Shown piece by piece: positions 3,719-59,300 of a stretch of 64,000 nt of DNA (within the stretch, counting starts at the first letter, position 1; each line of letters begins with the position of its first letter). Both the position numbers and the translations under genes were made by a program. Source of the DNA: Siphonodentalium dalli (lineage: Eukaryota > Mollusca > Scaphopoda > Gadilida > Siphonodentaliidae); contig CP136062.1 of the NCBI GenBank assembly GCA_032622095.1, forward strand, positions 8,709,710-8,773,709, written 5' to 3'. Below the pieces are notes generated by a model. The model made no database searches, was not told the origin of the DNA, and saw only the letters and a program-made list of their open reading frames with translations.

Positions 3719-5640
3719 CTACTGTTTAGCTAGTTCTTCTTTTTGCTCTAACGCAGAGGCAGCCTTCGTTTTAGCTTTGGAGAGAGGAATACTTCGTTTG
3801 ATCTTGAGTTTCTGCTTTTTCTCTACAACAGCTTGCTTCTTCTTCTCCTTCTCCTTTTTGTAATTTGATGCTGCACTCCTTAAATTTCTGCATATATCCC
3901 GATGTACAGGCGAATGGAGAGGGTCCTTCCTTTCAAAATATTTTAGACTGGTGCTGTTTCTCGCCCTCAATCCATATTTAATACTCTGAATGGCATTAAA
4001 TGTTTCTGTGTTGAGCCTTGTTGAACGGACGTCGATAATATCACCCATAAGGTTAAATGAAGACTCAACCATGGGGCCATGGAAGATGGACAATGCAGCC
4101 TTCACTATTTTAGAGAGTGCTGGATATTTCTCTGTGGCAAATACTCCAGCCCACCACTGTACTATCTTCCCTTCTTTATAATCATAATCTGGCAGACTTC
4201 CATCGATTTGGTAGACCCTAATCTCAGTGGATATACCATCATGATCAGCATCTGTTAGAAAATTCTCCAAATGTCCAATCCCTGTGAGGTGATGCGGTCT
4301 TACCAGTGGGTCAATGCATGAAAGAGTCTTTAGAATGGCATTGTTTAGGGGTAGCTTTTTCTGCATATATCCCGCACAATTAATATAGGCATCTTCAACA
4401 TTCGCCTTAAACTCTTCCACCTGCGAGTCATTCTCTTCAAGCTTTGCAATGATTTTCTTGGCCTTGTTTCCATAGTACATATTCCGGTCATTAAGATTTT
4501 TCTTGTCAGCCATGTTCAACTTTTTCAAAAACTTTGTCGACTTCCCGGATATAATTTCTGGCTTTATGAAACAGGAAAGAAATTGCTTGAAGGTGTCCAG
4601 CTGTTTATCGTGCAATTGGTGAACCAAAGTGTCCTTAGTTTGAAATAAGCAGACGTATGCTTTCAATATACTCAGGACACTTGCATAGAAAGCCAGTTGA
4701 AGCTGTGTCTTCTCCTGTGTGTAGAAAAGTTTCTCGAAAATTCTCCTTTTTCTTTCAGTCCCATCTTTCGTCATGTTCTTTTTCCTCAGTGTTGCATGCA
4801 TCTTCTCTATTTCTGCCCTCGACTCTTTACTGATGTTCAAGGTCTTATATATTTCATCTATCACATCTTTGTAGTCAGCTCTTAAACTTTGATGAATAAA
4901 TGCATAATAGAAAATTTGCAAGGCAGGGAATAACCTCTCTGTGTCCACTGATCTATCATAAACAGACAGCCAGCGATGTTTTATAAACCTCTCTGGTATA
5001 GTAGCTCTGACTCCAACTATATCACATATTGTTTTTAGAAGCTCTCGCAGATCTGATGACCATTTAAAATCACAGTAGATGTCAGAAAACAGCCTTTCCA
5101 GATAATTTTCAAATGAGGCACAGAATCGCTTACAGCAGTTATGTATATGGTGACAAGAATCACCATCAATGTCCAATAAATGTTGAGCTTTCCCACTTCT
5201 AACACGCTGCTCAAAACCAGATTTTGATCCGCGCATTACATTGCACGAGTCAAGGAGAATCGAAACACAATTCTTCCAAGGTATATGATGGTTGTCAAAG
5301 ATATCACACACAGCATTGTAAATAGAAAAAGCATCCACCTTAATAACTTCCACTGAGCAGAGATGCTCAACTCTAACCTCTCCATCTGAATAGTATGATG
5401 TTAGAATGGTTAACATCCTCTTAAGATTTTTTCCGGTACTCTCATCGATGTTGAGTGAGAAAGGGAACTTTTGTAAATTACTCACAGTCTCTTCTGTAAA
5501 GCTTTTTCCTAACCCATATGTTAACTTGTAAGAAGCTGTCGTCCTATCCATTGTCATCATGCTGAGTGCTGGCTTGTCTTTTGATGTTGTCTGACACAGC
5601 TTCACCAGTGTTGGTGCCAGCGATAGAGGCAGGGAGTGTT
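3719..5640 (-). CDS. hAT transposase, main exon
   Basis: This encodes the catalytic and C-terminal parts of a cut-and-paste transposase acting on the element ends in the nucleus. The frame is open from a stop just upstream of 5640, includes HSLPLSLAPTLVKLC typical of the family, and ends at TAG 3719-3721. Likely RNase H-fold acidic residues are the D of NIDESTG and the D of LLDSCNV. A Cys/His cluster (CHHIHNCCKRF) follows. The C-terminal dimerisation region includes PMVESSFNLMGDIIDVRSTR, whose E fits the third catalytic position. A lysine-rich tail of about 55 residues could act as a nuclear signal. It is the downstream exon of the split gene whose N-terminus lies at 5706-6082. Family assignment is from motifs only. 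Confidence 0.85.
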
Positions 5641-5705
5641 CTCACAGATTATTATTACTAGAAGGCAAAATTAATAATCAGTGAATCAATTAAACCAGTT
5701 CTTAC
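5641..5705 (-). other. Probable short intron in the transposase gene
   Basis: The minus strand has donor GTAAG at 5705-5701 and acceptor-like 'ctgtgag' ending at 5641, or 'ccttctag' ending at 5658. Protein logic demands IATQ(E)HSLPL across the junction. The simplest junctions are one base out of phase or bring in stops, so either the exact splice site differs or another indel is present. Confidence 0.5.
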
Positions 5706-6082
5706 CTCCTGTGTAGCTATCCTGTCGCACATTGGGATACAGGTTGAATCAATCTTTGGGTTCAGCTTATTATTTGTTGACGTCTGTCCAAACATTGAGT
5801 CAAGTCTAAAGTTTGATGTCCTCACACACAAAGAATCTATGTGCACAACTGTGCTACAGTGATCTTGCATCCGCGCGATCCGTAATTTGTTAGTTTATTG
5901 CAAATAACACAGATGCACTTCCCAGAAACAGCAACTTTTTTGAAAAAATCACCGAGAATGTAATCTTTTTCTTTACCATCTTTATGACGAATTTTGACCG
6001 GCTTTTGAAACCAGGCAAATGAAAACTTATTCTTAACTCCAACGTCGTCATATCGATCGCCTTCTTTCACAATTGAATTCAT
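5706..6082 (-). pseudogene. hAT transposase N-terminal exon with BED-like finger, frameshifted
   Basis: The first ATG in the open frame is at 6082; the frame is closed upstream by a stop near 6178. It reads through FSFAWFQKPV to CICVICNKLTNYGSRG, the first half of a BED-like zinc finger. In this frame it stops near 5837. The expected second half (DHCSTVVHIDSLC, giving the paired histidines) lies in a neighbouring frame from about 5870, so a one-base indel near 5866-5872 is likely. That second frame runs to IATQE and a good donor, CACAGGAG|GTAAGA, at 5706/5705. Either this copy is inactive or the assembly has a local error. Confidence 0.7.
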
Positions 6083-6507
6083 AACAATCACTTTTAAAAC
6101 TTCTAATTTCTTTTGAAAGAGATCGCGAACCGTGAAACTCTTTTGTTCAAAACAAAAGAATGATCGCGGCAAAAATTATCCCGAAGTCCGTCGAGTCAAC
6201 GAATATCATTGGCTTGATGTCGAGCGTCGACAACAACGGAAGCGAAGCGAGCCAATGAGAAGCTACATATTAAACCGGCATGGTAGAACCGGTGTTGCCG
6301 AAAAAACAACCGGTGTCGCTCTGAATGACCGGACAATTTAGCCTTATATATCGGCCGACTGAGATCGTCGCGAATAAAAACTAACCATACCCCCCCCCCC
6401 CCCCCCCCCCCAAAATTTTCTCAGCGGATTTGCACAGATCTCAAAAACGTCCAAAATGGCTTCCAAAAAGCGGAAATCCGCCGAAAAGCGGAAAATTCTC
6501 ATCCCTG

Positions 6508-12796: not shown

Positions 12797-13003
12797 TGTA
12801 TCCTGCATGGCAACATATCGTATCCTGCATGGCAACATATCGCATCCTGCATGGCAACATATCGTATCCTGCATGGCAACATATCATATCCTGCATGGCA
12901 ACATATCGTATCCTGCATGGCAACATATCGTATCCTGCATGGCAACATATCGTATCCTGCATGGCAACATATCGTATCCTGCATGGCAACATATCGTATC
13001 CTG
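12797..13003 (+). repeat. 22-bp minisatellite, about ten copies
   Basis: Near-perfect tandem repeat of 'tcctgcatggcaacatatcg' plus two bases. Its 22-bp period makes several frames open on both strands, so apparent proteins here are artefacts. Confidence 0.95.
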
Positions 13004-13034
13004 ATCAAGCCTGCAAATAGCGTGTCTGTCATTT

Positions 13035-13137
13035 GCAGAATGAGGTCCCCAGAGGGTGAATTTAGTGATGCTATCCCGCATAGTGGGCTAGCATCACCAA
13101 ATTCACCCTCTAGAGACCTCATTCTGCTTAGGCTTCA
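13035..13137. repeat. Palindromic repeat A, complete copy
   Basis: The arms 'gcagaatgaggtccccagag' and reverse complement flank a centre 'atcccgcatagtgggcta', itself a small hairpin. A further half copy lies at 13330-13370. Confidence 0.8.
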
Positions 13138-13445
13138 TCTTCTGGGAAGTATCTATAGTATCAAATTAGGATTGTTTTTAGTTACATTTCCCTTCTAGGA
13201 AGTTTCTATATCCCCTAATTTGCAGAAGATAAAATTCATAATTGAGGCGCCCAATGGTGAACATCATCAACTTCAACTGGGGAACTTCAATCTGATCCTA
13301 TGTCTGCCATATCAGTTGAGAGCCTAAGCAGAATGAGGTCCCCGGAGGGTGAATTTAGTGATGCTATGCGGGATTTGCAGACTTGATCCTGATGACTGTG
13401 ACTTCACATAAGCTATGGAGAGACTCACTTCGTTTGTAAACAAAA

Positions 13446-13914
13446 TGTGACCCGCCATATCAAATCCAGTCGTAAGTCGGGATTTTTTTACCCTGTGCCA
13501 ATGCATTCTCTTATATATAAGGGATTTTTTTACCCTGTGCCAATGCATTCTCTTATATATAAGAGAATGCATTGGCCTAACAATTTTTTATCATGTTTTT
13601 TAAATAAATGTTTCTTACAAACTTTAGGACATAAAATAAAAAACATCCATTACCCTGCAGGGAGCCCCACACATATATAGAAGCATATAGAAGAGGGTCG
13701 TCTGCTCATGTTTGTCTGGGGCTCTGTATGGGTGAAATTATAAAATTGTTAAATAATACAAGAACAAATTATTAAAATTGTAAAAAATTGTTAGGCCAAT
13801 GCATTCTCTTATATATGCGAGGCGACCTATGGTCGACTCGCATATATAAGAGAATGCATTGGCACAGGGTAAAAAAATCCCGACTTACGACTGGATTTGA
13901 TATGGCGGGTCACA
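13446..13914. mobile_element. Palindromic composite element B-C-B, copy 1
   Basis: The outer inverted ends TGTGACCCGCCATATCAAAT extend through 'taccctgtgccaatgcattc'. Inside lie two B palindromes (13493-13577 and 13796-13866, core 'gccaatgcattctcttatat') around a hairpin of the C family (about 13650-13735). The second copy is at 51431-51965. No clear target duplication is visible. Confidence 0.75.
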
Positions 13915-14240: not shown

Positions 14241-14296
14241 GCCTTACTTTTTTGTTGGATGATCTTGAAGCTGTGGTATTTAAAGTTTAATGTTCA

Positions 14297-14386
14297 ACCC
14301 ACAGGGAGCCTCACACAGATCATGATGGAAGCATGCACTTAGGAGTGTTGTCTGCTCTGGTACATTTGGGGCTCTCTATAGGTTAG
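14297..14386. repeat. Hairpin C, single copy
   Basis: 'aacccacagggagcctcaca' opens the stem and 'ggggctctctataggtta' closes it. The conserved interior 'tgttgtctgctct' matches the core of the tandem units at 55.5-56.8 kb. Confidence 0.75.
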
Positions 14387-14608: not shown

Positions 14609-14732
14609 CCCTTTGAGTGCCAGGTCGATTTTTGTATCAACCCATATACCCTGTGCCAATGCATTATCTTATATATGCGAGTCGACCATAGGTCGCCTCG
14701 CATATATAAGAGAATGCATTGGCCTAACAATT

Positions 14733-20824: not shown

Positions 20825-23785
20825 GTGAAGTTCTCATATTATCTCCCAGTAATACGCGGGGGAGGTTCTCATATGAACATATTATCTGCCGGTCATACAC
20901 GGTGGAGGTTCATATTATCCGCCGGTCATACGCGAGGGAAGTTTTCTTATTATCCTCCATTCATATGCGGGGGAGGTTCTGATATGAACATATTATCTGC
21001 CGGTCATACGCGGTGGAGGTTCATATAATCCACCGGTCATACACGGTGGAGGTTCTCATATGAACATATTATCCACCGGTCATACGCGGTGGAGGTTCAT
21101 ATTATCCGCCGGTCATACGCGAGGGAAGTTCTCATATTATCCTCCGATCATATGTGGGGGAGGTTCTGATATGAACATATTATCCGCCGGTCATACGCGG
21201 TGGAGGTTCATATTATCCGCCGGTCATGCACGAGGGAGGTTCTCATATTATCAACCGGTCATACGCGAGGGAGGTTCTCATATTATCCTCCGGTCATATG
21301 TTGGGGAGGTTCTCATATGAACATATTATCCGCCGGTCATACGCGGTGGAGGTTCATATTATCTGCCGATCATACACGAGGAAAGTTCTCATATTATCCT
21401 TCGGTCATATGTGGGGGAGGTTCTGATATGAACATATTATCCGCCGGTCATACACGGTGGAGGTTCATATTATCCAACGGTCATACGTAGGGGAGGTTCT
21501 CATATGAACATATTATCCGCCGGTCATACGCAGTAGAGGTTCTCATATGAACATATTATCCGCCGGTCATACGCGAGGGAGGTTCTCATATTATCCACCG
21601 GTCATACGCGAGGGAGGTTCTCATATTATTCTCCGGTCATACGTAGGGGAGGTTCTCATATGAACATATTATCTGCCGGTCATACGCGGTGGAGGTTCAT
21701 ATTATCCACCGGTCATACGCGAGGGAAGTTTTCATATTATCCTCCAGTCATACGCGGGGCAGGTTCTGATATGAACATATTATCTGCCGGTCATACGCGA
21801 GGGAAGTTCTCATATTATCCTCCGGTCATACGATGGGGAGGTTCTCATATGAACATATTATCCGCCGGTCATACGCGAGGGAGGTTCTCATATTATCCAC
21901 CGGTTATACGCGAGGGAGGTTCTCATATTAGCCTCCGGTCATATATAGGGGAGGTTCTCATATGAACATATTATCTGCCGGTCATATGCGGTGGAGGTTC
22001 ATATTATCCGCCAGTCATACGCGAGGGAGGTTCTCATATTATCCTCCGGTCATACGTGGGGGAGGTTCTGATATGAACATATTATCCACCGGTCATACAC
22101 GGTGGAGGTTCATATTATCCGCCGGTCATACGCGAGGGAAGTTCTCATATTATCCTCCGATCATATGTGGGGGAGGTTCTGATATGAACATATTATCCGC
22201 CGGTCATACGCGGTGGAGGTTCATATTATCCGCTGGTCATGCGCGAGGGAGGTTCTCATATTATCAACAAGTCATACGCGAGGGAGGTTCTCATATTATC
22301 CTCCGGTCATATGCGAGGGAGGTTCTCATATTATTCTCCGGTCATACGTAGGGGAGGTTCTCATATGAACATATTATCTGCCGGTCATACGTGGTGGAGG
22401 TTCATATTATCCACCGGTCATACGCGAGGGAAGTTTTCATATTATCCTCCAGTCATACGCGGGGGAGGTTCTGATATGAACATATTATCTGCCGGTCATA
22501 CGCGAGGGAAGTTCTCATATTATCCTCCGGTCATACGATGGGGAGGTTCTCATATGAACATATTATCCGCCGGTCATACGCGAGGGAGGTTCTCATATTA
22601 TCCACCGGTTATACGCGAGGGAGGTTCTCATATTAGCCTCTGGTCATATATAGGGGAGGTTCTCATATGAACATATTATCTGCTGGTCATATGCGGTGGA
22701 GGTTCATATTATCCGCCAGTCATACGCGAGGGAGGTTCTCATATTATCCTCCGGTCATACGTGGGGGAGGTTCTGATATGAACATATTATTCACCGGTCA
22801 TACGCAGTGGAGGTTCATATTATCCACCGGTCATACACGGTGGAAGTTCTCATATGAACATATTATCCGCCGGTCATATGCGGTGGAGGTTCATATTATC
22901 CGCCGGTCATACGCGAGGGAGGTTGTCATATTATCCACCGGTCATACGCGAGGGAGGTTCTTATATTATCCTCCGGTCATACGTTGGGGAGGTTCTCATA
23001 TGAACATATTATCCGCCGGCCATACGCAGTGGAGGTTCTCATATGAACATATTATCCGCCGGTCATACGTGGTGGAGGTTCTCATATGAACATATTATCC
23101 ACCGGTCATACGCGGTGGAGGTTCATATTAACCGCCTGTCATACGCGAGGGAAGTTCTCATATTATCCTTCGGTAATAGGTGGGGGAGGTTCTGATATGA
23201 ACATATTATCTGCCGGCCATACGCGGTGGAGGTTCATATTATCCACCGGTCATACGCGGTGGAGGTTCTCATATTATCCTCCGATCATATGTGGGGAGGT
23301 TCTGATATAAACATATTATCCGCCGGTCATACGCGGTGGAGGTTTATATTATCCGCCGGTCATACGCGAGGGAGGTTGTCATATTATCCACCGGTCATAC
23401 GCGAGGGAGGTTCTTATATTATCCTCCGGTCATACGTTGGGGAGGTTCTCATATGAACATATTATCCGCCGGCCATACGCAGTGGAGGTTCTCATATAAA
23501 CATATTATCCGCCGGTCATACGTGGTGGAGGTTCTCATATGAACATATTATCCACCGGTCATACGCGGTGGAGGTTCATATTAACCGCCTGTCATACGCG
23601 AGGGAAGTTCTCATATTATCCTTCGGTCATAGGTGGGGGAGGTTCTGATATGAACATATTATCTGCCGGCCATACGCGGTGGAGGTTCATATTATCCACC
23701 GGTCATACGCGGTGGAGGTTCTCATATGAACATATTATCTGCCGGTCATATGCGAGGGAGGTTATCATATTATCCACCTGACACA
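20825..23785 (+). repeat. Foldback left arm: ~35/41-bp tandem array
   Basis: The short unit contains 'ccggtcatacgcgagggagg' then 'ttctcatattatcc'; the longer variant adds 'gatatgaacatatt'. Higher-order copies are visible: the block at 21962 recurs at 22667 (705 bp apart) and that at 23086 recurs at 23539 (453 bp apart). Confidence 0.9.
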
Positions 23786-23789
23786 CCCG

Positions 23790-24090
23790 AGGGAGGATAT
23801 GACCGGCGGATAATATGTTCAAATGAGGACCTCCCCCAACGTATGACCAGAGGATAATATGAGAACCTCCCTCGCGTATGACCGGTGGATAATATGAACC
23901 TCCACCGCATATGACCGGCAGATAATATGTTCATATCAGAACCTCCCCCGCGTATGACCGGAGGATAAAATGAGAACTTCCCTGGCGTATGACCTGCGGA
24001 TAATATGAACCTCCACCGCGTATGACCGGCAGATAATATGTTCATATGAGAACCTCCCCCGCGTATGACTGGCAGATAATATGAGAACCT
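23790..24090 (-). repeat. Foldback right arm: inverted tandem array
   Basis: The same units are in reverse complement ('gaacctcccccgcgtatgac'). The switch occurs within about 20 bp around 23785. Confidence 0.85.
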
Positions 24091-24269
24091 CCACCGCATA
24101 TGAATGGCGGACACATAAGTTTTTAAGTCTATAAACACTATTTGATTTGAATATTCTTTTGAATAGTCTTACCATTGACATATTCATTCGTTCAAACCAG
24201 TTGATCTATTTTGTAACTTGGCTTTTAGTCGCTGGGCTACGGCATCTGGGCTTTTAGTCACAACTGAAA

Positions 24270-26345
24270 TAACGAGAGGCCGATCACGATCGGCAGATGT
24301 TTAACCCATACCTTGGCGATAGCGACTAGCCATAACTGATAATTTGTCAAAGATATGATGATCACAGGAATTAATCCATATATCAGTACCCAACTTGAAA
24401 TCAAAAGCTCAAATAATTTGTCTTAAGAAAGGGTTAAAGTATTTGGGTTGGGGAGGAGTAGTTTTAAATCTCATAACTCTGTCCCTATTCACACAAGGAC
24501 CTCTCACTGTGAGATCCAATGGTTTAGTGATTTCGGAAGACATGTTTAGGAGTTTAAGTTAACTCATTAGAAGCAAAAGTGATAAATCCCTATCTTTGCC
24601 ACTTTTGACATGCCAGATATTCAAAATTTATTATTCACTTCTAAAGAGAAATTATAATTGCTTAGAACGACATATATGTAGGGGATTCCATCTCGTATTT
24701 AAATGGTACTTTAATTACCCCCCCCCCCCCTTCCCCCATTCTCCCCAGTTATTTGTTTATCAAATATGGACAGATATAAGATCAGATCTGACCTGTGTAT
24801 TAAATAAGATTAAGTGTTTCATAACAGGGGTGTATGGTTTTCAAAAATATATGTAGTTTATACAATTCAAAAGTATTATCTATATAATGTTATACAGACA
24901 TAATATGATGGGGATGCTGGCCCCTATGACCACTAAATCGTTCATATAAAAGAAAGTAAGTTAGCCCTCATTTGAATGGTTTCACACATTACAATGTTTT
25001 ACAAGTAGCTTGGGCACTAAAAGCCACAACCTTCAATGTTAATCTTCTAAGTGCTCTGTGGCCCCTAAAATTCAATCAACCATGAAAATGTGAACAAATG
25101 GGAAAATAAAGTTCATGGAAATACTAACATCTACCATATTGATTTTCAAAACAAGTCATCACTTACAATAGTCATGTATATTTATCTGCCTGTTTCACAT
25201 TGCATAGATAAATCATATTGGCTATCAGCTGTTGTTTTAATTTCAAATTGAAAGCACGTGTCTGAAGGGTTAATATATTTTTCAAAAATCAATTAATCAG
25301 TCAATACCAAAATTGATAGAAGTGAATAGTGTGCAAAGATACCCAATAGATATTAAGAGATATGAGGAAGAGTCCATGTACATTATAGCATGTTGTCTAT
25401 GGAAACCTTGGAAAGGGTTAATTATTTTTGAAGCAAATTAATGGAATTTAGAAGACACTTATATAGGTGAGGGGGGCCTTATATCACCCTGTAATGAAAT
25501 TTCAAGAATAGGAAAAACACCATTCTTGTGCTGCCATTAATCAATTTGACAGTTAGAATAAACAAACAGCCAGCCACCAGTGTTGTTTATCTTGCTTGAC
25601 CCACCAGAGCTCTGTATCATATGTCATCACTCATTTCATAACAGATTTCACTTGGAATGACAACATCTATAAAAATCCTCTCATATACTCTGAATGTTGG
25701 ATGATCACATGGTAATTTATTGATATCATTATATTACATGAAACTATTGCAATAAAATCTTCATATATTTTGAAAACAGGATATCACACCTAATTAATCG
25801 TATAAAACTAAAATAAATGAAAGTGTCAATTTTTTTTTATTATTTAAATTTTTTTTTATTGTTATTTAAAGTTCAAACAAAATTTAATATTTGTATATGC
25901 TAAATTTAGCAAGGAGCTAAATCTAAAAAACATTTAATTTAAAAAAAAAAAGGGTCATAACTCCTTTAAAATTAATCGGATCAAACCCATATTCGGACTC
26001 GATCTGTATTTTGGGCTGTGAAACTCACATCCCAAATTTGGTTCCAATCAGATAAAAAATGATTGAGTTATGGCAGAATGCGTGAATTATAAGTTGAAAA
26101 AGGGCCATAACTCTGTAACAAAAACTCGGATCAAACCCAAATTCGAACTCGATCTGTATTTTTGGCTGAGAAACCCATATACAAAATTTGGTTTCGATCG
26201 GATAGAAAATATTTGAGTTATCGCATTACTCGTAAAGTGTCTACGGACAGACAGACAGACGGACAGACAGACAGACAGACAGACGGACGAACGACGAGTG
26301 GTCAATCCGGGCAACAACACTATGTTTACCATACTATGGTATGGG
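24270..26345 (+). repeat. Composite module, first copy
   Basis: It opens with 'cgagaggccgatcacgatcg' (24274) and closes with the X segment at 25945-26345: 'gggtcataactcctttaaaa', a gacagacag run and the hairpin 'gtttaccatactatggtatg'. The interior (24350-25930) is AT-rich with no gene; short C and T runs occur near 24720 and 25850. Confidence 0.6.
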
Positions 26346-26822
26346 TAAACATAAAAATGGGTCGCAATATTTGTAAAACATGCTTCACTTCTACCTCTTA
26401 AAACTCTAAGTCCAAAAATGGATTCAAAACCCTCCAGAGCACTGCTGCAGCCGCTACAGCGCTGCATTGAAAAAAAATGGGTCGCAATATTTGTAAAACA
26501 TGCTTCATTTATATCTCTTAAAACTCTTAAGTCCAAAAATGGATTCAAAACACTCCAGAGCACTGCTGCAGCCGCTACAGCGCTGCATTGCAAAAAAATG
26601 GGTCACGATATTTGTAAAACATGCTTCATTACTACCTGTTAAAACTCTAAGTCAAAAAATGAATTCAACCCCCCCCCCAGAGCACTGCTGCAGCCACTAC
26701 AACGCTGCATTGAAAAAATATGGGTCGCAATATTTGTAAAACATGCTTCACTTCTACACTCCAGAGCACTGCTGCAGCCGCTACAGCGCTGCATTGAAAA
26801 AAAATGGGTCACGATATTTGTT
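26346..26822 (+). repeat. About 120-bp tandem repeat, four to five units
   Basis: Units contain 'gggtcgcaatatttgtaaaa', 'catgcttca', 'tcttaaaactct' and 'agcactgctgcagccgctac'. The same units lie at 33036-33160 and 33336-33696, each time ending at a 'cgagaggccg' module start. Confidence 0.85.
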
Positions 26823-31683: not shown

Positions 31684-32940
31684 CCTGGACATAACATAGG
31701 AGAATGATTAAATGAAAAGCATCAAAACCATATGATGTGTGGAGAGGGTTAATCATTTTCAATGACATCATATTATGGAACTAAGGAATGTGTGGATAAA
31801 TTTTTGTCTAAGATAAGACAACAGTGTTTGTAAAGAACAATGTCTGTAAAACAACACTACAAAGTAACAATGGACTATTCCAATTTATTATTTTAGAATA
31901 GGTGTCTTTTAGTGTGTGCATATAGCTAATGTAATAAACCTGTTTCAACAAAGGGGTTAACTTCATATTGCACAGAAAGCAGAACTCCACCAGAGAGTGA
32001 GTAATCAATCACAGTTTGACATAATTATGATAACAAGTCCAGCCATTGGTACCACTATCATGCTTTATAGCATGTAGTATCTAATGTCATAGTGATAATT
32101 AACTCATTTCAATAACACACATTGCTGTGGGATATATGTTCTCTTCAAATTCCCAGCAGTAATTACTTGAATTATAAAGGGTCATAACTCTGTTAAAATA
32201 TATCGGATCAAACCCATATTCGAACTCGATCTGTATTTAGGGGTGATAAATTCATATACCAAATTTTGTGTTGATCAGATGAAAAATGTTTTGAGTCATA
32301 GCAGCTTGGGTGAATTCTAAGTAAACATAAGAGTGAAAAGGGTTAATTAAACAATACCAAAAACCATACAGATGAAGAACGTGCTAAAAAAACCTAGGTA
32401 AGAAATATGAGGCAGATCAGAAGAAATATGTTCAACTTATTGCATTGGATAGCATGTGTGTAAAGGGTTAATTATTTTCTAAACTGATCAACCAATCAAT
32501 ACCAAAAACTATACAGGTGAGGGGTGTGTCATCATAAACCTACATATCAAATATGAACACAATCGGACAAATTTTTTTTTTCGGTTAGAGCATCGGATTT
32601 TTTTTAAATTTATTTTATTTTCGAAAAAAGGGTCATAACTCCTTTAAAATAAATCGGATCAAACCCATATTCGAACTCGATCTGTATTTTTTGCTGTGAA
32701 ACTCACATACCAAATTTGGTTCCAATCAGATAAAAAATGTTTGAGTTATGGCAGAATGCGTGAATTCTAAGTTGAAAAAGGGCCATAACTCTGTAACAAA
32801 ATCTCGGATCAAACCCAAATTCGAACTCGATCTGTATTTTAGGCTGAGAAACCCATATACAAAATTTGGTTTCGATTGGATAGAAAATGTTTGAGTTATC
32901 GCATTACTCGTAAAGTGTCTACGGACAGACAGACAGACAG

Positions 32941-32975
<35 letters not shown>

Positions 32976-33035
32976 GACGAACGACGAGTAGTCAATCCGG
33001 GCAACGACACTATGTTTACCATACTATGGTATGGG
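31684..33035 (+). repeat. Composite module, second copy, right part (Z and X)
   Basis: It resumes after the 4.2-kb insertion with 'cctggacataacatagg' and runs through to the X end with a gacagacag run and 'atgggtaaacat'. It matches 34350-35693 with only scattered differences. Confidence 0.85.
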
Positions 33036-33232
33036 TAAACATAAAAATGAATTCAAAACCCTCCAGAGCACTGCTGCAGCCGCTACAGCGCTGCATTGTA
33101 AAAAAAATGGGTCGCGATATGGGTGAAACATGCTTCACTTCTACCTCTTAAAACTCTTAAGTTGGTTTCGATCGGATAGAAAATATTTGAGTTATCGCAT
33201 TACTCGTAAAGTGTCTACGGACAGACAGACAG

Positions 33233-33267
<35 letters not shown>

Positions 33268-33696
33268 GACGAACGACGAGTGGTCAATCCGGGCAACGAC
33301 ACTATGTTTACCATACTATGGTATGGGTAAACATAAAAATGGGTCGCAATATTTGTAAAACATGCTTCACTTCTACCTCTTAAAACTCTAAGTCAAAAAA
33401 TGGATTCAAAACCCTCCAGAGCACTGCTGCAGCCGCTACAACGCTGCATTGAAAAAAAATGGGTCGCAATATTTGTAAAACATGCTTCATTTATATCTCT
33501 TAAAACTCTTAAGTCCAAAAATGAATTCAAAACACTCCAGAGCACTGCTGCAGCCGCTACAGCGCTGCATTGAAAAAACATGGGTCGCAATATTTGTAAA
33601 ACATGCTTCATTTATATCTCTTAAAACTCTTAAGTCCAAAAATGAATTCAAAACCCTCCAGAGCACTGCTGCAGCCGCTACAGCGCTGCATTAAAA
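33036..33696 (+). repeat. 120-bp units with a partial X segment
   Basis: One 120-bp unit (33036-33160), then a truncated X end with its own gacagacag run (33164-33335), then about three further units (33336-33696). This joins the second and third composite modules. Confidence 0.8.
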
Positions 33697-35590
33697 AACG
33701 AGAGGCCGATCACGATCGGCAGATGTTTAACCCATACCTTGGCGATAGCGATTAGCTATTTTTATAAATTTTATAAATCCTTACACCAACCTTTTCATGA
33801 GTGCAAAAGTTTCAACAATTCACACTTTATATAGTGATCGTGTGAAAAATATTTAGTTATCACATTGTGTCAACAGGATTGGTGGAGGATGTTAATATTT
33901 TTAAGCAAATAAACCAAATGACCCTCACTATGCAGGTTAGGGGTGTGTTATCGTCAACTATGCCAAGAACTATAAACATAATCAATGGAAATATTTGAGT
34001 TATCAAATCGGATAGAATGGGGTTAATCTTACCCAAACTAATGAACTGATAAACACAAAATAGTCTATGAAAAGCATGTCATTGGATTTAGAACCCCATA
34101 CAATAAGTCAGTCTCAAGAATACCAGCACCATTAATATTATCCTGGAGCCCAAATGCAATTGAGGGAATTTCAAAATAAGACATTTCCTCTAATGATGAA
34201 TATTCAATTGGTGATGTATTGAAACCCTTACTGAACCTGGCTCAAAGTGAAAGGGATAATATTATATCTGTCTATCGCATAATATGTGTCTATGGAATGG
34301 TTTAATTTTAATCCCAAATCCATGCAAATCAAAAGTGGATCACCATCAACCTGGACATAACATAGGAGAATGATTAAATGAAAAGCATCAAAACCATATG
34401 ATGTGTGGAGAGGGTTAATCATTTTCAATTACATCATGTTATGGAACTAAGGAATGTGTGGATAAATTTTTGTCTAAGATAAGGCAACAGTGTTTGTAAA
34501 GAACAATGTCTGTAAAACAACACTACAAAGTAACAATGGACTATTCCAATTTATTATTTTAGAATAGGTGTCATATAGTGTGTGCATATAGCTAATGTAT
34601 TAAACCTGTTTCAACAAAGGGGTTAACTTCATATTGCACAGAAAGCAGAACTCCACCAGAGAGTGAGTAATCAATCACAGTTTGACATAATTATGATAAC
34701 AAGTCCAGCCAGCCAGTGGTACCACTATCATGCTTTATAGCATGTAGTATCTAATGTCATAGTGATAATTAACTCATTTCAATAACACACATTGCTGTGG
34801 GATATATGTTCTCTTCAAATTCCCAGCAGTAATTACTTGAATTATAAAGGGTCATAACTCTGTTAAAATATATCGGATCAAACCCATATTCGAACTCGAT
34901 CTGTATTTAGGGGTGATAAATTCATATACCAAATTTTGTGTTGATCAGATGAAAAATGTTTTGAGTCATAGCAGCTTGGGTGAATTCTAAGTAAACATAA
35001 GAGTGAAAAGGGTTAATTAAACAATACCAAAAACCATACAGATGAAGAACGTGCTAAGAAAAACCTAGGTAAGAAATATGAGGCAGATCAGAAGAAATAT
35101 GTTCAACTTATTGCATTGGATAGCATGTGTGTAAAGGGTTAATTATTTTCTAAACTGATCAACCAATCAATACCAAAAACTATACAGGTGAGGGGTGTGT
35201 CATCATAAACCTACATATCAAATATGAACACAATCGGACAAAAAAATATTTCGGTTAGAGCATCGGATTTTTTTTTAATTTATTTTATTTTCGAAAAAAG
35301 GGTCATAACTCCTTTAAAATAAATCGGATCAAACCCATATTCAAACTCGATCTGTATTTTTGGCTGTGAAACTCACATACCAAATTTGGTTCCAATCAGA
35401 TAAAAAATGTTTGAGTTATGGCAGAATGCGTGAATTCTAAGTTGAAAAAGGGCCATAACTCTGTAACAAAATCTCGGATCAAACCCAAATTCGAACTCGA
35501 TCTGTATTTTGGGCTGAGAAACCCATATACAAAATTTGGTTTCGATCGGATAGAAAATGTTTGAGTTATCGCATTACTCGTAAAGTGTCT

Positions 35591-35621
<31 letters not shown>

Positions 35622-35693
35622 GACGAACGACGAGTGGTCAATCCGGGCAACGACACTATGTTTACCATACTATGGTATGGGTAAACATAAAAA
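33697..35693 (+). repeat. Composite module, third copy (no insertion)
   Basis: An uninterrupted Y-Z-X module. The sequence 'caccatcaacctggacataa' at 34341-34360 is the pre-insertion state of the locus occupied by the element at 27485-31683. Confidence 0.9.
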
Positions 35694-40872: not shown

Positions 40873-41020
40873 CAGTGGAGTATTTCATTTTACACCTATG
40901 GGAGGGCAAATTCACATTTAATAATTAATTGTGCTTAATTAAGCGCAATCAAGCACAATTAATTATTAAATGTGAATTTCGCCTCCCATACATGTAAGTG
41001 TAAGATGAAATACTCCACAC
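40873..41020. repeat. Near-perfect 145-bp palindrome
   Basis: 'gtggagtatttcat' and 'atgaaatactccac' are the ends, and 'gcacaattaattattaaatg' with its complement lies near the centre. It is MITE-like but I could not identify a duplication. Confidence 0.7.
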
Positions 41021-49239: not shown

Positions 49240-49345
49240 CTCCTGGGGGGGTCATAACCCATAGAGACCCCCCTGGCACTTAGATTGGAGCAGACGACAC
49301 TCTGTTGTGCATGCTTCCATCTGGGGGAGGCTCCCTGTGGGTTAA
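49240..49345 (-). repeat. Hairpin C, inverted copy
   Basis: The reverse complement of the C hairpin, with 'ggagcagacgacactctg' as the conserved core and an extra 'gggggggtcat' stretch on the left side. Confidence 0.7.
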
Positions 49346-49424
49346 ACATTAAACTTTATCAGTGAGGTCTGAGATGGATGTCTTACATTACTGACCAAGC
49401 CTGAGTTTAACATGCATGTCATTT

Positions 49425-49515
49425 GCAGAATGAGGTCCCCAAAGGGTGAATTTAGTGATGCTATCCCGTATATAGCAGGCTAGCATCAACAAATTCACCC
49501 TCTGGGGACCTCATT
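49425..49515. repeat. Palindromic repeat A, complete copy
   Basis: Arms from 'gcagaatgaggtccccaaag' and its reverse complement flank 'atcccgtatatagcaggcta'. Confidence 0.8.
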
Positions 49516-49719
49516 ATATTTGCATGGCCTCATCTGCTATGGGAGACATAGATTCAGATTGATGTTCCCAAATGGTGAATATTGTGATGTACACCCATTT
49601 GGAACCTCAATTATGCAATGTGTCATCAGCCAATTTAACTAAACTAAAAGAACAAATAGAATCTAAGTTTCTATAGAAATATGATAATGTAGATACTTTC
49701 CAGAGAAGATGAGGCCTAA

Positions 49720-49799
49720 GCAGAATGAGGTCCCCAGAGGGTGAATTTGGTGACGCTAGCCCACTATGCGGGATAGTATCACTAAATTCACCCTCTGGG
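49720..49799. repeat. Palindromic repeat A, truncated copy
   Basis: The left arm is complete; the right arm stops at 'caccctctggg', where a 157-bp-type unit begins. Confidence 0.75.
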
Positions 49800-49995
49800 C
49801 TTGGTCAGTAATTTAAGACATCCATCTCAAACCTCACTGATAAAGTTTAATGTTTAACCCACAGGGAGCCTCACACAGATGAACATGCACTACAGACTGT
49901 CGTCTGCTCCTGTCTATGTGGGGCTCTCTATGGCTTAGACACTCTATATCCAAGCTTGGTCAGTAATGTAATACATCCATCTCAAACCTAAATGT
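49798..49995 (+). repeat. 157-bp-type unit with hairpin C
   Basis: One unit plus the start of another of the same sequence that is tandemly amplified at 55450-56845 ('cttggtcagtaa', 'cctcactgataaagtttaat'). Confidence 0.85.
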
Positions 49996-50225: not shown

Positions 50226-50445
50226 GTGCCAATGCATTCTCTTATATATGCGAGTCGACCATAGGTCGCCTCGCATATATAAGAGAATGCATTGGCCTAA
50301 CAATTTTATATAATTTTAATAATTTTTTCTTGTATTCTTTAACAATTTTATAATTTCACCCATACAGAGCCCCAGACAAACATGAGCAGACGACACTCTT
50401 CTATATGCTTCTATATATGTGTGGGGCTCCCTGCAGGGTAATGGA
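50226..50445. repeat. B palindrome plus hairpin C variant
   Basis: A perfect B palindrome at 50226-50297 ('gcgagtcgaccataggtcgc' centre) is followed by AT-rich sequence and a C-type hairpin at about 50355-50440. The same order is found inside 51431-51965. Confidence 0.8.
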
Positions 50446-51430: not shown

Positions 51431-51965
51431 TGTGACCCGCCATATAACCCACAGGGACCCTCACACAGATGGAAGCATGCACTACATAGTGTCGTCTGCT
51501 CCAGGCTGTGTGGGGCTCTCTATGGGTTAATAGACCCGCCATATCAAATACAGTCAGAAGTCGGGATTTTTTACCCTGTGCCAATGCATTCTCTTATATA
51601 TGCGAGTCGACCATAGGTCGCCTCTCATATATAAGAGAATGCATTGGCCTAACAATTTTTACAATTTTAATAATTTGTTCTTGTATTCTTTAACAATTTT
51701 ATAATTTCACCCATACAGAGCCCCAGACAAACATGAGCAGACGACACTCTTCTATATGCTTCTATATATGTGTGGGGCTCCCTGCAGGGTAATGGATGTT
51801 TTTTATTTTATGTCCTAAAAATTGTAAGAAACATTTATTTAAAAAACATGATAAATTTTTTTTAGGCCAATGCATTCTCTATGGTCGACTCGCATATATA
51901 AGAGAATGCATTGGCACAGGGTAAAAAATCCCGACTTCCGACTGGATTTGATATGGCGGGTCACA
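51431..51965. mobile_element. Palindromic composite element B-C-B, copy 2
   Basis: The outer ends TGTGACCCGCCATAT and 'atatggcgggtcaca' correspond to 13446-13914 with the interior in opposite order. B palindromes are at 51578-51648 and 51870-51917 (the latter shortened), with a C hairpin at about 51705-51790. An additional C hairpin is inserted near the left end at 51446-51532. Confidence 0.8.
51446..51532 (+). mobile_element. Hairpin C inserted with 12-bp direct repeats
   Basis: The 87-bp C unit lies between two copies of 'gacccgccatat' (51434-51445 and 51533-51544). The other copy of the host element (13446-13914) has this sequence once, so the unit was added here. This suggests that C can move as a separate unit. 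Confidence 0.65.
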
Positions 51966-53775: not shown

Positions 53776-54018
53776 GAACCTGTGCACCACTGAGGTATGT
53801 CTGAACCTGTGCACCACTGAGGTATGTCTGAACCTGTGCACCACTGAGGTATGTCTGAACCTGTGCACCACTGAGGTATGTCTGAACCTGTGCACCACTG
53901 AGGTATGTCTGAACCTGTGCACCACTGAGGTATGTCTGAACCTGTGCACCACTGAGGTATGTCTGAACCTGTGCACCACTGAGGTATGTCTGAACCTGTG
54001 CACCACTGAGGTATGTCT
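53776..54018 (+). repeat. 27-bp minisatellite, nine copies
   Basis: Perfect units 'gaacctgtgcaccactgagg' plus 'tatgtct'. The period is a multiple of three, so one minus-strand frame stays open as a nine-residue repeat; I do not regard it as a gene. Confidence 0.95.
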
Positions 54019-54300
54019 GACTTTGTCTTTGTGGAGTTATCCTCCCTTTTTTCGACTTAGAAAATTTTCAATACAGGGGTATACCTTTGTCCGAGCTTTT
54101 ATTCCTACATATTTTGTTCAATTTTGTTTACACTTGGCACAGATATTCAGTACCATGGGAACCTGTGCACCTGGGATTATGAAGTCTGTCCAACTTTTTA
54201 TCCCCCTTTTTCGACTTAGAAAATTTTCATTTAACTTAATGTTTACTGACATGTGAAACATCTTAGGACAGTCACACCTATAGTTTCAGCAGATATATGT

Positions 54301-54915: not shown

Positions 54916-55032
54916 GTGATATAAGTCAGACTAATTTCAGCAGTTATTGCCTCTAATGAGACACATGCGTATTCAGTTAATTGTGTAAGAAAAGCCATGC
55001 AACCAGGCCTGAGTTTATTGTGTCTGATTTAT

Positions 55033-55125
55033 GCAGAATGAGGTCCCCAGAGGGTAAATTTAGTGACGCTATCCCACATATTGGGCTAGCATCACTAAAT
55101 TCAGCCTCTGGGGATCTCATTCTGC
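55033..55125. repeat. Palindromic repeat A, complete copy
   Basis: Arms from 'gcagaatgaggtccccagag' and reverse complement; the centre is 'atcccacatattgggcta'. Confidence 0.8.
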
Positions 55126-55338
55126 TTAGGCCTCATCTTCTCTGGAATTTTTTTTATTATCACATTTCTATAGAAACTTCTTCACATAGATTCTATTTCT
55201 TTTTCGGTTCAGTTTCTCTATATCCCCAAATTGGCAGACGACACATTGCATAATCTAGGTTACCAATGGGTGTACATCACAATATTCACCATTTGGGAAC
55301 TTTAATATGTCTATGTCTCCCATAGCAGATGAGGCCAT

Positions 55339-55430
55339 GCAGAATGAGGTCCCCAGAGGGTGAATATAGTGATGCTAGCCTGCTATACAGGATTTAATCA
55401 CAGAATTCACCCTCTGGGGACCTCATTCTT
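55339..55430. repeat. Palindromic repeat A, complete copy
   Basis: Arms from 'gcagaatgaggtccccagag' and 'ctctggggacctcattct'; it lies just before the 157-bp array. Confidence 0.8.
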
Positions 55431-55449
55431 CAAATGAGAGGCACACTAA

Positions 55450-56845
55450 ACTCAGGCTTGGTCAGTATCCATCTCAAACCTCACTGATAAAGTTTAATGT
55501 TTAACCCACAGGGAGCCTCACACAGATGGAAGCATGCACTACAGAGTGTCGTCTGCTCCAGTCTATGTGGGGCTCTCTATGGGTTAGACACTCTATATCC
55601 AAGCTTGGTCAGTAATGTAATACATCCATCTCAAACCTCACTGATAAAGTTTAATGTTTAACCCACAGGGAGCCTCACACAGATGGAAGCATGCACTACA
55701 GAGTGTCGTCTGCTCCAGTCTATGTGGGGCTCTCTATGGGTTAGACACTCTATATCCAAGCTTGGTCAGTAATGTAATACATCCATCTCAAACCTCACTG
55801 ATAAAGTTTAATGTTTAACCCACAGGGAGCCTCACACAGATGGAAGCATGCACTACAGAGTGTCGTCTGCTCCAGTCTATGTGGGGCTCTCTATGGGTTA
55901 GACACTCTATATCCAAGCTTGGTCAGTAATGTAATACATCCATCTCAAACCTCACTGATAAAGTTTAATGTTTAACCCACAGGGAGCCTCACACAGATGG
56001 AAGCATGCACTACAGAGTGTCGTCTGCTCCAGTCTATGTGGGGCTCTCTATGGGTTAGACACTCTATATCCAAGCTTGGTCAGTAATGTAATACATCCAT
56101 CTCAAACCTCACTGATAAAGTTTAATGTTTAACCCACAGGGAGCCTCACACAGATGGAAGCATGCACTACAGAGTGTCGTCTGCTCCAGTCTATGTGGGG
56201 CTCTCTATGGGTTAGACACTCTATATCCAAGCTTGGTCAGTAATGTAATACATCCATCTCAAACCTCACTGATAAAGTTTAATGTTTAACCCACAGGGAG
56301 CCTCACACAGATGGAAGCATGCACTACAGAGTGTCGTCTGCTCCAGTCTATGTGGGGCTCTCTATGGGTTAGACACTCTATATCCAAGCTTGGTCAGTAA
56401 TGTAATACATCCATCTCAAACCTCACTGATAAAGTTTAATGTTTAACCCACATGGAGCCTCACACAGATGGAAGCATGCACTACAGAGTGTCGTCTGCTC
56501 CAGTCTATGTGGGGCTCTCTATGGGTTAGACACTCTATATCCAAGCTTGGTCAGTAATGTAATACATCCATCTCAAACCTCACTGATAAAGTTTAATGTT
56601 TAACCCACATGGAGCCTCACACAGATGGAAGCATGCACTACAGAGTGTCGTCTGCTCCAGTCTATGTGGGGCTCTCTATGGGTTAGACACTCTATATCCA
56701 AGCTTGGTCAGTAATGTAATACATCCATCTCAAACCTCACTGATAAAGTTTATTGTTTAACCCACATGGAGCCTCACACAGATGGAAGCATGCACTACAG
56801 AGTGTCGTCTGCTCCAGTCTATGTTGGGCTCTCTATGGGTTAGGG
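55450..56845 (+). repeat. 157-bp tandem array, nine units
   Basis: Unit starts recur every 157 bp (55607, 55764, 55921, 56078, 56235, 56392, 56549, 56706), after a first slightly shorter unit. Copies are almost identical; the last three share a g-to-t change in 'cacatggagcc'. Each unit carries one C hairpin. Confidence 0.95.
55503..55585 (+). ncRNA. 83-nt hairpin C, first of nine (possible small-RNA source)
   Basis: 'aacccacagggagcctcaca' pairs with 'tgtggggctctctatgggtt'. By eye this gives about 24 paired positions with two mismatches and wobble pairs, followed by a further short stem and a loop around 'actacagagtg'. Length and shape resemble a microRNA precursor, but any palindromic transposon can fold this way. 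Further copies start at 55660, 55817, 55974, 56131, 56288, 56445, 56602 and 56759. No expression evidence is available. Confidence 0.3.
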
Positions 56846-56849
56846 TAGG

Positions 56850-57358
56850 CAGTTGTTACCGGCCGGCTAAGGAAGGTTCGATAGTTGACCTTGACATGAC
56901 ATGACCTTTCGTGACGGAAGTAAAATTTATATTTCGCGCATGCGCTATGTGCAATTTTTCGTACTTGAGTAAAATGAAGCAAACAAAGTTTTTCATCTTG
57001 CTGAATTCAAACTTAATTGATTAGAACACGTATTTGAATACGATTATCAGAGTTTACCGAAATTGAATGTGGTATTGAGTGGGAACGTTACGTCCTTCCA
57101 TATGAATTCAACGACTATTGGCTGATGAACTGGTTAAAAATTAGATTTGAATCGAAGTTCGAGTGACAGTGACGATGACCGTGACGGTGAATCGTGATAT
57201 TGACATTCACATTGTTGTTGACATTTTTGATTGAATTTTGTTAGCGGCAATTTAACACTCGGGTCTCAACGAGAGAAATTGAGCAACCTTGTACATCAGC
57301 GAACATTCTCACAAGAAGAAAACCACAGTGTTCACAAGTGATCTACTAATGTTTTAAA
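56850..57358 (+). promoter_or_regulatory. Possible promoter region
   Basis: Unique sequence begins directly after the array. It contains GCGCATGCGC at 56936-56945, matching the NRF1-type palindrome, and several 'gtgacgg' and 'gacatgac' motifs. It precedes the small ORF at 57359. The evidence is motif-level only. Confidence 0.25.
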
Positions 57359-58890: not shown

Positions 58891-59106
58891 ATAAAATATT
58901 TGTGTATGTGAATTTTTTTTCCATGGTGGGGAGATATACAGAGTTGGGAAAGATAAACAGGGGCAGATGACGTGGTACGTGTACACCAGTACCAGACAAT
59001 CTTGATACAGAGAATATCAGAAGGTATCTTTGTTGAAGACTTATAATCAGTTTTGTCCATATTTTGCCAAGATAAATTATATTAACCCGCTTGCAGCATT
59101 AAAGAT

Positions 59107-59300
59107 CCTGTGCCAGTGCATTCTCTTATATATGTGTCTCCCATAGGGAGAATGCACTGGTTTACAAGGTTGAGGTAAATATTGTTAGGTCAAGGTATGC
59201 TCTCATATATGTGAGGATCCCTATGGGAGACTCATATATAAGAGAATGCACTGGCACATGATCTTTATATATGTAAGAGAATGCATTGGCACAGGGTTTT
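59107..59300. repeat. Diverged B palindromes
   Basis: 'gtgccagtgcattctcttat' and reverse versions occur three times with a different centre ('tctcccataggga'), confirming that B exists as a variable family. Confidence 0.75.

Follow-up and report, generated by a model that had tools for sequence, protein, structure and literature searches.

The nine hairpins that stand in tandem at 55467-56843 of the window (the whole 64,000-nucleotide stretch of Siphonodentalium dalli DNA analysed here, C2:8709710-8773709) are very probably one arm, lengthened by repetition, of a foldback DNA transposon that is small, non-autonomous and common in this genome. What is observed in favour of this reading is the ends and target duplications of related elements, the layout of their arms, the variable number of repeats that these contain, the youth of an array whose units match at 99%, and its site near a chromosome end. 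The hairpin is transposon-borne, and as far as its sequence tells there is no good sign of its being preserved as an RNA.

The array and its hairpin

The features that make up the array are as follows.

55467-56843, plus strand: tandem array of nine hairpins; the 157-bp unit is made of a 74-bp spacer (X) and an 83-bp hairpin (HP)
55503-55585, 55660-55742, starts at 55817, 55974, 56131, 56288, 56445 and 56602, and 56759-56841, plus strand: the HP hairpins, 83 nt each
56840-56850, plus strand: outer end of the array; the unit sequence is lost 4 nt past the GGG of the last HP and the GGCTTG terminus is absent, so that the right end is not intact

A first-pass annotation had described nine near-identical units of 157 bp, each with an 83-nt hairpin, and this description holds: TRF gives a period of 157, 8.8 copies and 99% matches (score 2719), while the core GTCGTCTGCTC recurs nine times in register, at 55548 + 157n. 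With the unit at 56019 as reference, five of the units, this one among them, are identical and two differ at a single position; a single change, on the left edge, also marks the first unit, and the last has three and is cut right after its hairpin. The annotation was also right in seeing a recent tandem amplification of the hairpin. An RNA of 103 nt with one HP is predicted to fold at -54.4 kcal/mol (z -7.0) when read from the plus strand, and the same stretch at -49.9 kcal/mol (z -5.9) from the minus strand, a stability on both strands that is to be expected of a palindrome.

Seven diverged copies had been proposed outside the array. They are real, with cores at 13697 (+), 14347 (+, one mismatch), 49288 (-), 49899 (+), 50384 (-), 51491 (+) and 51735 (-), and the core word, with at most one mismatch, has 16 matches in the window where shuffles predict 0.19. 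Three of the seven (13697, 50384, 51735) form a second subfamily, HP2, identical to the HP consensus in 68 of 91 alignment columns; the two align with a score of 101 as against 29 +- 6 for 1,000 mononucleotide shuffles, and have loop and mismatches in common. Two of the outside copies need separate mention, the second adjoining an element, Q, which is described below.

14296-14384, plus strand: HP copy that has diverged (82% to consensus), preceded by 14 nt left over from X
50358-50439, minus strand: HP2 hairpin adjoining Q sequence

When the genome was scanned (2.23 Gb in 9 contigs), a degenerate HP pattern found 12,206 matches and its reversed control 0. Counted over the whole genome with a 40-bp core and at most three mismatches, the array's own subfamily, HP1, has 1,937 copies and HP2 has 18,310, the control giving 0 in both cases. 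Collections of viral and prokaryote sequences contain the hairpin core in 1 and 3 stretches, which their number and titles lead us to take as chance.

A foldback element as probable carrier

HP1 appears, with good confidence, to be at home in a non-autonomous foldback element that has ends CAAGCCTG...GGCTTG, a palindromic core, arms made of X-HP and target duplications of 8 bp. Three elements of this family lie in the window.

55002-55462, plus strand: core of the foldback element bearing the array, with palindromes 55030-55128 and 55338-55432 within inverted arms 55002-55125 and 55339-55462
49256-49936, no strand assigned: second element, hairpin on both arms; HP (minus) 49256-49343, X (minus) 49344-49403, core 49425-49799, X (plus) 49798-49855, HP (plus) 49856-49936
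13006-13385, plus strand: HP-free member of the family, with the target duplication ATCCTGAT (8 bp) on either side

Inverted arms thus surround a middle domain, as is expected of a foldback element, and the element of the array displays an end-like CAGGCCTG at 55004 and an inner CAGGCTTG at 55453. Exact duplications of 8 bp lie directly outside the CAAGCCTG/GGCTTG ends in 4 of 149 end pairs drawn from 17 loci; the elements so flanked (L030, L062, L064 and window 13006-13385) measure 248-574 bp, and three of the four contain HP. When right flanks were permuted between loci, pairs from one locus being left out, 0 of 5,000 runs reached four duplications. The size of 8 and the ends had been spotted by eye in L062 and L064 before the scan, so that the independent cases are L030 and the window element. 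The stricter scan and the permutation replaced an earlier scan that tolerated two mismatches (2,617 pairs) and dropped low-complexity flanks, and which had found 3 exact duplications as against a total of 7 at four shifted controls.

A target duplication of 8 bp is the pattern of hAT- or P-type transposases, and ends and duplications together point to an element of the cut-and-paste type. A remnant of a hAT transposase is found in the window at 3719-6175 (minus strand), with a 640-aa frame that has a Dimer_Tnp_hAT domain (E 2.4e-5); in the ranges scanned around the hAT-like frame 3719-5641, there was no CA...TG end pair with an 8-bp duplication. Helitrons and Helentrons are not known to make a target duplication, and membership in that group was rejected because the relatives of the array have duplications of 8 bp.

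Module maps of 22 array loci (the window, L010 and L051-L070) place the palindromic core inward of the X-HP run in 18, counted by eye; the exceptions are L056 and L066, which start with HP, L069, without a core in the stretch fetched, and L065, where the core lies about 290 bp off. The opposite arm carries HP-X in inverted orientation in L010, with 34 nt of HP, and also in window element 49256-49936; past 49936 there is further partial X and end sequence, to 50027, and a target duplication was not seen for this element. The X-HP runs of the arms contain from 1 to 9 repeats, the variable repetition that characterizes foldback arms. Where the outer end can be read (20 of the 22 loci), nine stop at HP by eye, eight at a GGCTTG-like terminus (L052, L054, L056, L058, L062, L064, L068, L069) and three continue into X (L060, L065, L070). 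A script put at 10 the number of loci in which the unit is lost no more than 8 nt from HP; among them is L062, where inspection by eye recognizes a GGCTTG end, diverged but complete, together with its target duplication. For the element of the window array neither an intact right terminus nor a target duplication was found, and its insertion is therefore deduced from that of its relatives, whose arm layout and repeat runs make the window array look like one arm of such an element. Just past the right end of the window, at C2:8774052-8774968 (L069), there is a second array of 157-bp units, with six hairpins in the same orientation.

The hairpin in other MITE families

The same hairpin has entered a MITE with TTAA ends, and also, at two places, the MITE that we name Q. 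In nine of the loci fetched, the TTAA MITE (ends TTAACCCTTTACCC...GGGTAAAGGGTTAA) bears HP at its right end, and the sequence that follows on the right is of seven kinds (L021/L024, L023/L032, L036, L037, L038, L043, L048). Among the 40 places listed by a query without HP, 19 parents were fetched and none of them has the hairpin, from which it follows that HP was acquired by that MITE; the query locus itself, L043, is among the same 40 places and does carry it. In Q, HP2 is central, and the ends TGTGACCCGCCATATC and a probable TA target were both recognized by eye. The window contains two such elements.

13446-13914, plus strand: MITE Q, TIR TGTGACCCGCCATATC..., with HP2 in the centre at 13652-13733
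51431-51965, plus strand: Q element whose left TIR contains HP (51446-51528), enclosed by two 12-bp GACCCGCCATAT copies, and which has HP2 (minus) at 51709-51790

The location of HP in the left TIR, between the two GACCCGCCATAT copies, is that of four Q elements (window 51446, L039, L041 and L045); L044 and L025 have the same HP variant as these loci, with left flanks that are different or degraded. L071 is a Q without HP; as a clean empty site for HP2 it was dropped, being only partly comparable, as about 27 bp also differ.

Presence in other MITE families is not explained by a repeat purely internal to the arm, and we must consider the view that HP is itself mobile, a MITE-like palindrome of 83 bp (TTAACCC...GGGTTAA) that would insert near the ends or centres of other transposons and then be amplified in tandem. 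It would account for the diversity of the surroundings of HP (154 copies at 63 loci, of which 19 copies are HP2, fall into 31 left and 38 right flank clusters, in 58 combinations), for its absence from the 19 fetched parents of the TTAA MITE, for its place in Q between copies of GACCCGCCATAT, which may be a target duplication of 12 bp (L071 being a Q that lacks the hairpin), and for the variety of tandem units built around it (89, 118, 121, 128, 151 and 157 bp). We nevertheless hold it to be unlikely, as no consistent target duplication accompanies the hairpin and as the contexts in which TTAA borders at least one copy number no more than 7 of 22 on the left and 11 of 34 on the right, the contexts being moreover not independent; on these counts insertion at TTAA was rejected as a general rule for HP. 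It is similarly doubtful, if conceivable, that the 83-bp hairpin is a transferable module, acquired near the ends or in the centre by three or more MITE families that differ in their ends (the family with 8-bp duplications, Q and the TTAA MITE), which would itself drive recurrent arrays of varied unit length and seed satellites at chromosome ends.

Tandem forms and chromosome position

The foldback arm, which we prefer as the origin of the array, is not the only layout in which HP is repeated. Arrays of about 89 bp per unit, made of HP only (no X, and 10 bp from GGG to the next CCC), have 15 units in L095, 18 in L096, 8 in L097, 6 in L099 and 7 in L100, and speak against the arm reading in that they demonstrate that HP can amplify outside the arm layout. 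Further unit lengths are 128 bp (L098), 121 bp (L101), 118 bp (L040) and 151 bp (L022). The units are tandem and homogeneous as in a satellite, in arrays that, so far as seen, are short (at most 9 units at 157 bp, 15-18 at about 89 bp).

The 157-bp arrays and the HP1 core are concentrated towards chromosome ends, a bias that has to be understood as a result on close relatives, the matches scored or listed being the best or the first ones. All 22 loci with 157-bp units lie within 16 Mb of a contig end (expected share 0.129), in a set drawn from the best 40 of 1,428 candidates (39 places, further units of one array being left out, merged at 300 kb into 22). Among the matches listed for the exact HP1 core, 39 of 46 loci do so (expected share 0.119); here 91 of 100 matches listed are on C1-C6, and 57, taken without further units of the same array, were merged into 46. 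The controls give 7 of 39 for the HP-free TTAA MITE query and 9 of 40 for Q with HP2. The size of C3 used for these distances was obtained by subtraction. At C6:227.66-227.85 Mb (including L060), five near-identical HP arrays follow each other about 46-47 kb apart, which suggests tandem segmental duplication.

Is the hairpin kept as RNA?

The first-pass annotation saw in the array a possible small-RNA locus; the hairpin would then be transcribed and cut by the microRNA or hairpin-RNA pathway. A long hairpin, stable on both strands, speaks for this, and there is a precedent elsewhere for the passage from MITE to microRNA, hsa-mir-548 having been derived from Made1 in the account available from PMC1784062. 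We consider this fate highly improbable here. An Rfam search at E up to 10 recovered no family at gathering score, hence no known microRNA family; the two cores have some 20,000 copies; and substitutions are not biased towards those that keep pairs. This last result, which the annotation had itself proposed as decisive against its reading, comes from the array loci only (158 hairpins, 111 of them distinct, at 29 loci), a set that is not free of selection, as L095-L101 were picked by the exact core and the other loci for their likeness to the unit. In it a standard pair is kept in 44 of 167 stem events, where 53.3 +- 4.9 are expected, and one of four double stem changes is compensatory. Natural copies keep 31.96 of 34 pairs, as against 31.85 when changes are placed at random (52 copies). 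Stem substitutions comprise C>T 16 and G>A 21 at G-C pairs, A>G 6 and T>C 16 at A-T pairs. As for the inner GTCGTC, said to be retained in diverged copies, it contains a CpG whose two positions vary more than any other site in the hairpin (12 and 15 events). Nor was a plus-strand gene that would run past 53036 and have the array in an intron, on its transcription path, borne out: four plus-strand stop-free frames of the region 48.5-53.1 kb (starts 48496, 48735, 48898 and 52937) have no Pfam match at E 0.1.

A more general function, that of an RNA or DNA structure conserved as a signal (a ribozyme, for instance, or a hairpin on which mobility depends), might be read in the loop and mismatches that the two subfamilies, identical in 68 of 91 columns, have in common, and in the 157-bp units, where divergence between loci leans towards conservation (HP 0.092 vs X 0.127, 74 units). 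Outside CpG, array loci have 2.46 events per site in the stem and 3.77 at unpaired sites (P 0.11). A mixed sample gave a stronger contrast, with 3.9 events per site in the stem vs 8.7 at unpaired sites and natural copies folding better, in 40 of 57 cases, than with changes placed at random (P 1.3e-5); it was set aside because it includes many of L011-L050, picked by a pattern that fixes stem letters. The same bias affects HP2, for which copies chosen by the hairpin pattern diverge by 0.0144 as against 0.077-0.115 in their flanks, a strong apparent conservation that stems mainly from the choice of copies and is largely gone once these are chosen on the flank alone. Twenty Q copies were accordingly selected on an exact 37-bp left flank. 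All twenty have HP2, two with deletions in it, and its substitution rate (0.0157) is about that of the near flank (0.0190 in the next 60 nt rightward and 0.0108 in the following 60 nt), which also argues against a small-RNA locus. The outer end of the element, 120-180 nt rightward, is at 0.088, and the sequence left of the chosen flank at 0.071, or 0.025 without L102 and L103, which are not homologous there. HP2 therefore resembles its right neighbour and is somewhat less diverged than the left; this left-hand difference could favour a signal, and yet flank-chosen copies display no clear extra conservation of the hairpin. Further, TTAA MITEs free of HP have moved, as has the HP-free element with its target duplication. 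A structured signal thus has, in our judgement, very little chance of being the explanation.

Other repeats in the window

Several other repeats of the window deserve to be recorded. Within 20834-24111 a large array with units of 35-43/111 bp (CATATTATCCGCCGGTCATACGCGGGGGAGG) is directly followed by the same unit reversed (23797-24111), making a big inverted pair. One layout is present three times, at 25947-26757, 32625-33698 and 35295-35624: a 150-bp dimer leads to a GACA microsatellite and, in the first two only, to a 121-bp array; we take this to recall pearl/Helentron-like elements. At 53776-54020 a 27-bp unit has 9.1 copies with 100% matches and is open in several frames; at 12798-13003 a 22-bp unit, GTATCCTGCATGGCAACATATC, has 9.4 copies and adjoins the duplication-flanked element 13006-13385. 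Other long palindromes, at 40888-40999, 59085-59282 and 14655-14723, have a weak likeness to microRNA models, far below gathering scores, and are likely to be further MITE hairpins.

How the array may have formed

We can therefore understand the array as a foldback arm that grew. Unequal exchange or gene conversion would add X-HP repeats to the arm, a gain that may be favoured near chromosome ends; the hairpin would be a by-product of the inverted-repeat architecture, and the 89-bp arrays of HP only may represent a later, satellite-like step. One and the same genome displays forms that resemble stages on the way from transposon arm to satellite, from the single hairpin through arms of up to 9 units to HP-only arrays of 15-18 units. 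The case moreover illustrates plainly that copies picked by the letters of the hairpin itself give a false appearance of conservation, a pitfall in searches for microRNAs or ribozymes.

Comparison with known systems

Galileo (of the P superfamily) and FB elements have long inverted arms with internal tandem repeats, as does the present foldback element. The repeats of Galileo contain additional transposase binding sites (PMC4079207). Literature matches listed for hairpin words included no paper on the subject by title. The closest published case found is that of Tetris and its repeat TIR-220, followed by the pearl/DTC84 elements of bivalves.

Tetris, of Drosophila virilis, is described in the text available from PMC4079207 as a foldback element with target duplications of 8-9 bp in complete copies, for which a transposase was not found, and whose TIR-220 repeats expand, in certain regions of the chromosomes, into satellite arrays. 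The window array, as arm repeats of a foldback element, has the same arrangement as TIR-220 (PMC4079207). The differences are that the repeat is of about 220 bp there and of 157 bp here, where each repeat holds a long hairpin; that the arrays of Tetris are in beta-heterochromatin whereas ours are near chromosome ends; that its arms alone reach 1,735 bp, while our duplication-flanked elements measure 248-574 bp as a whole; and that the present hairpin also occurs in other MITE families.

The MITE-like pearl/DTC84 elements contain short internal arrays, of up to six monomers, and DTC84 has a palindrome near the repeat junction, with linked satellite sequence dispersed along with transposons (PMC5139131). 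Short arrays in MITE-like elements and a palindrome are thus common to both systems, a likeness that is one of description only. The same source, in its available text, assigns one group of arrays to elements of the Helitron superfamily (PMC5139131), whereas the family that bears the present array has ends and target duplications of 8 bp that point to the cut-and-paste type.
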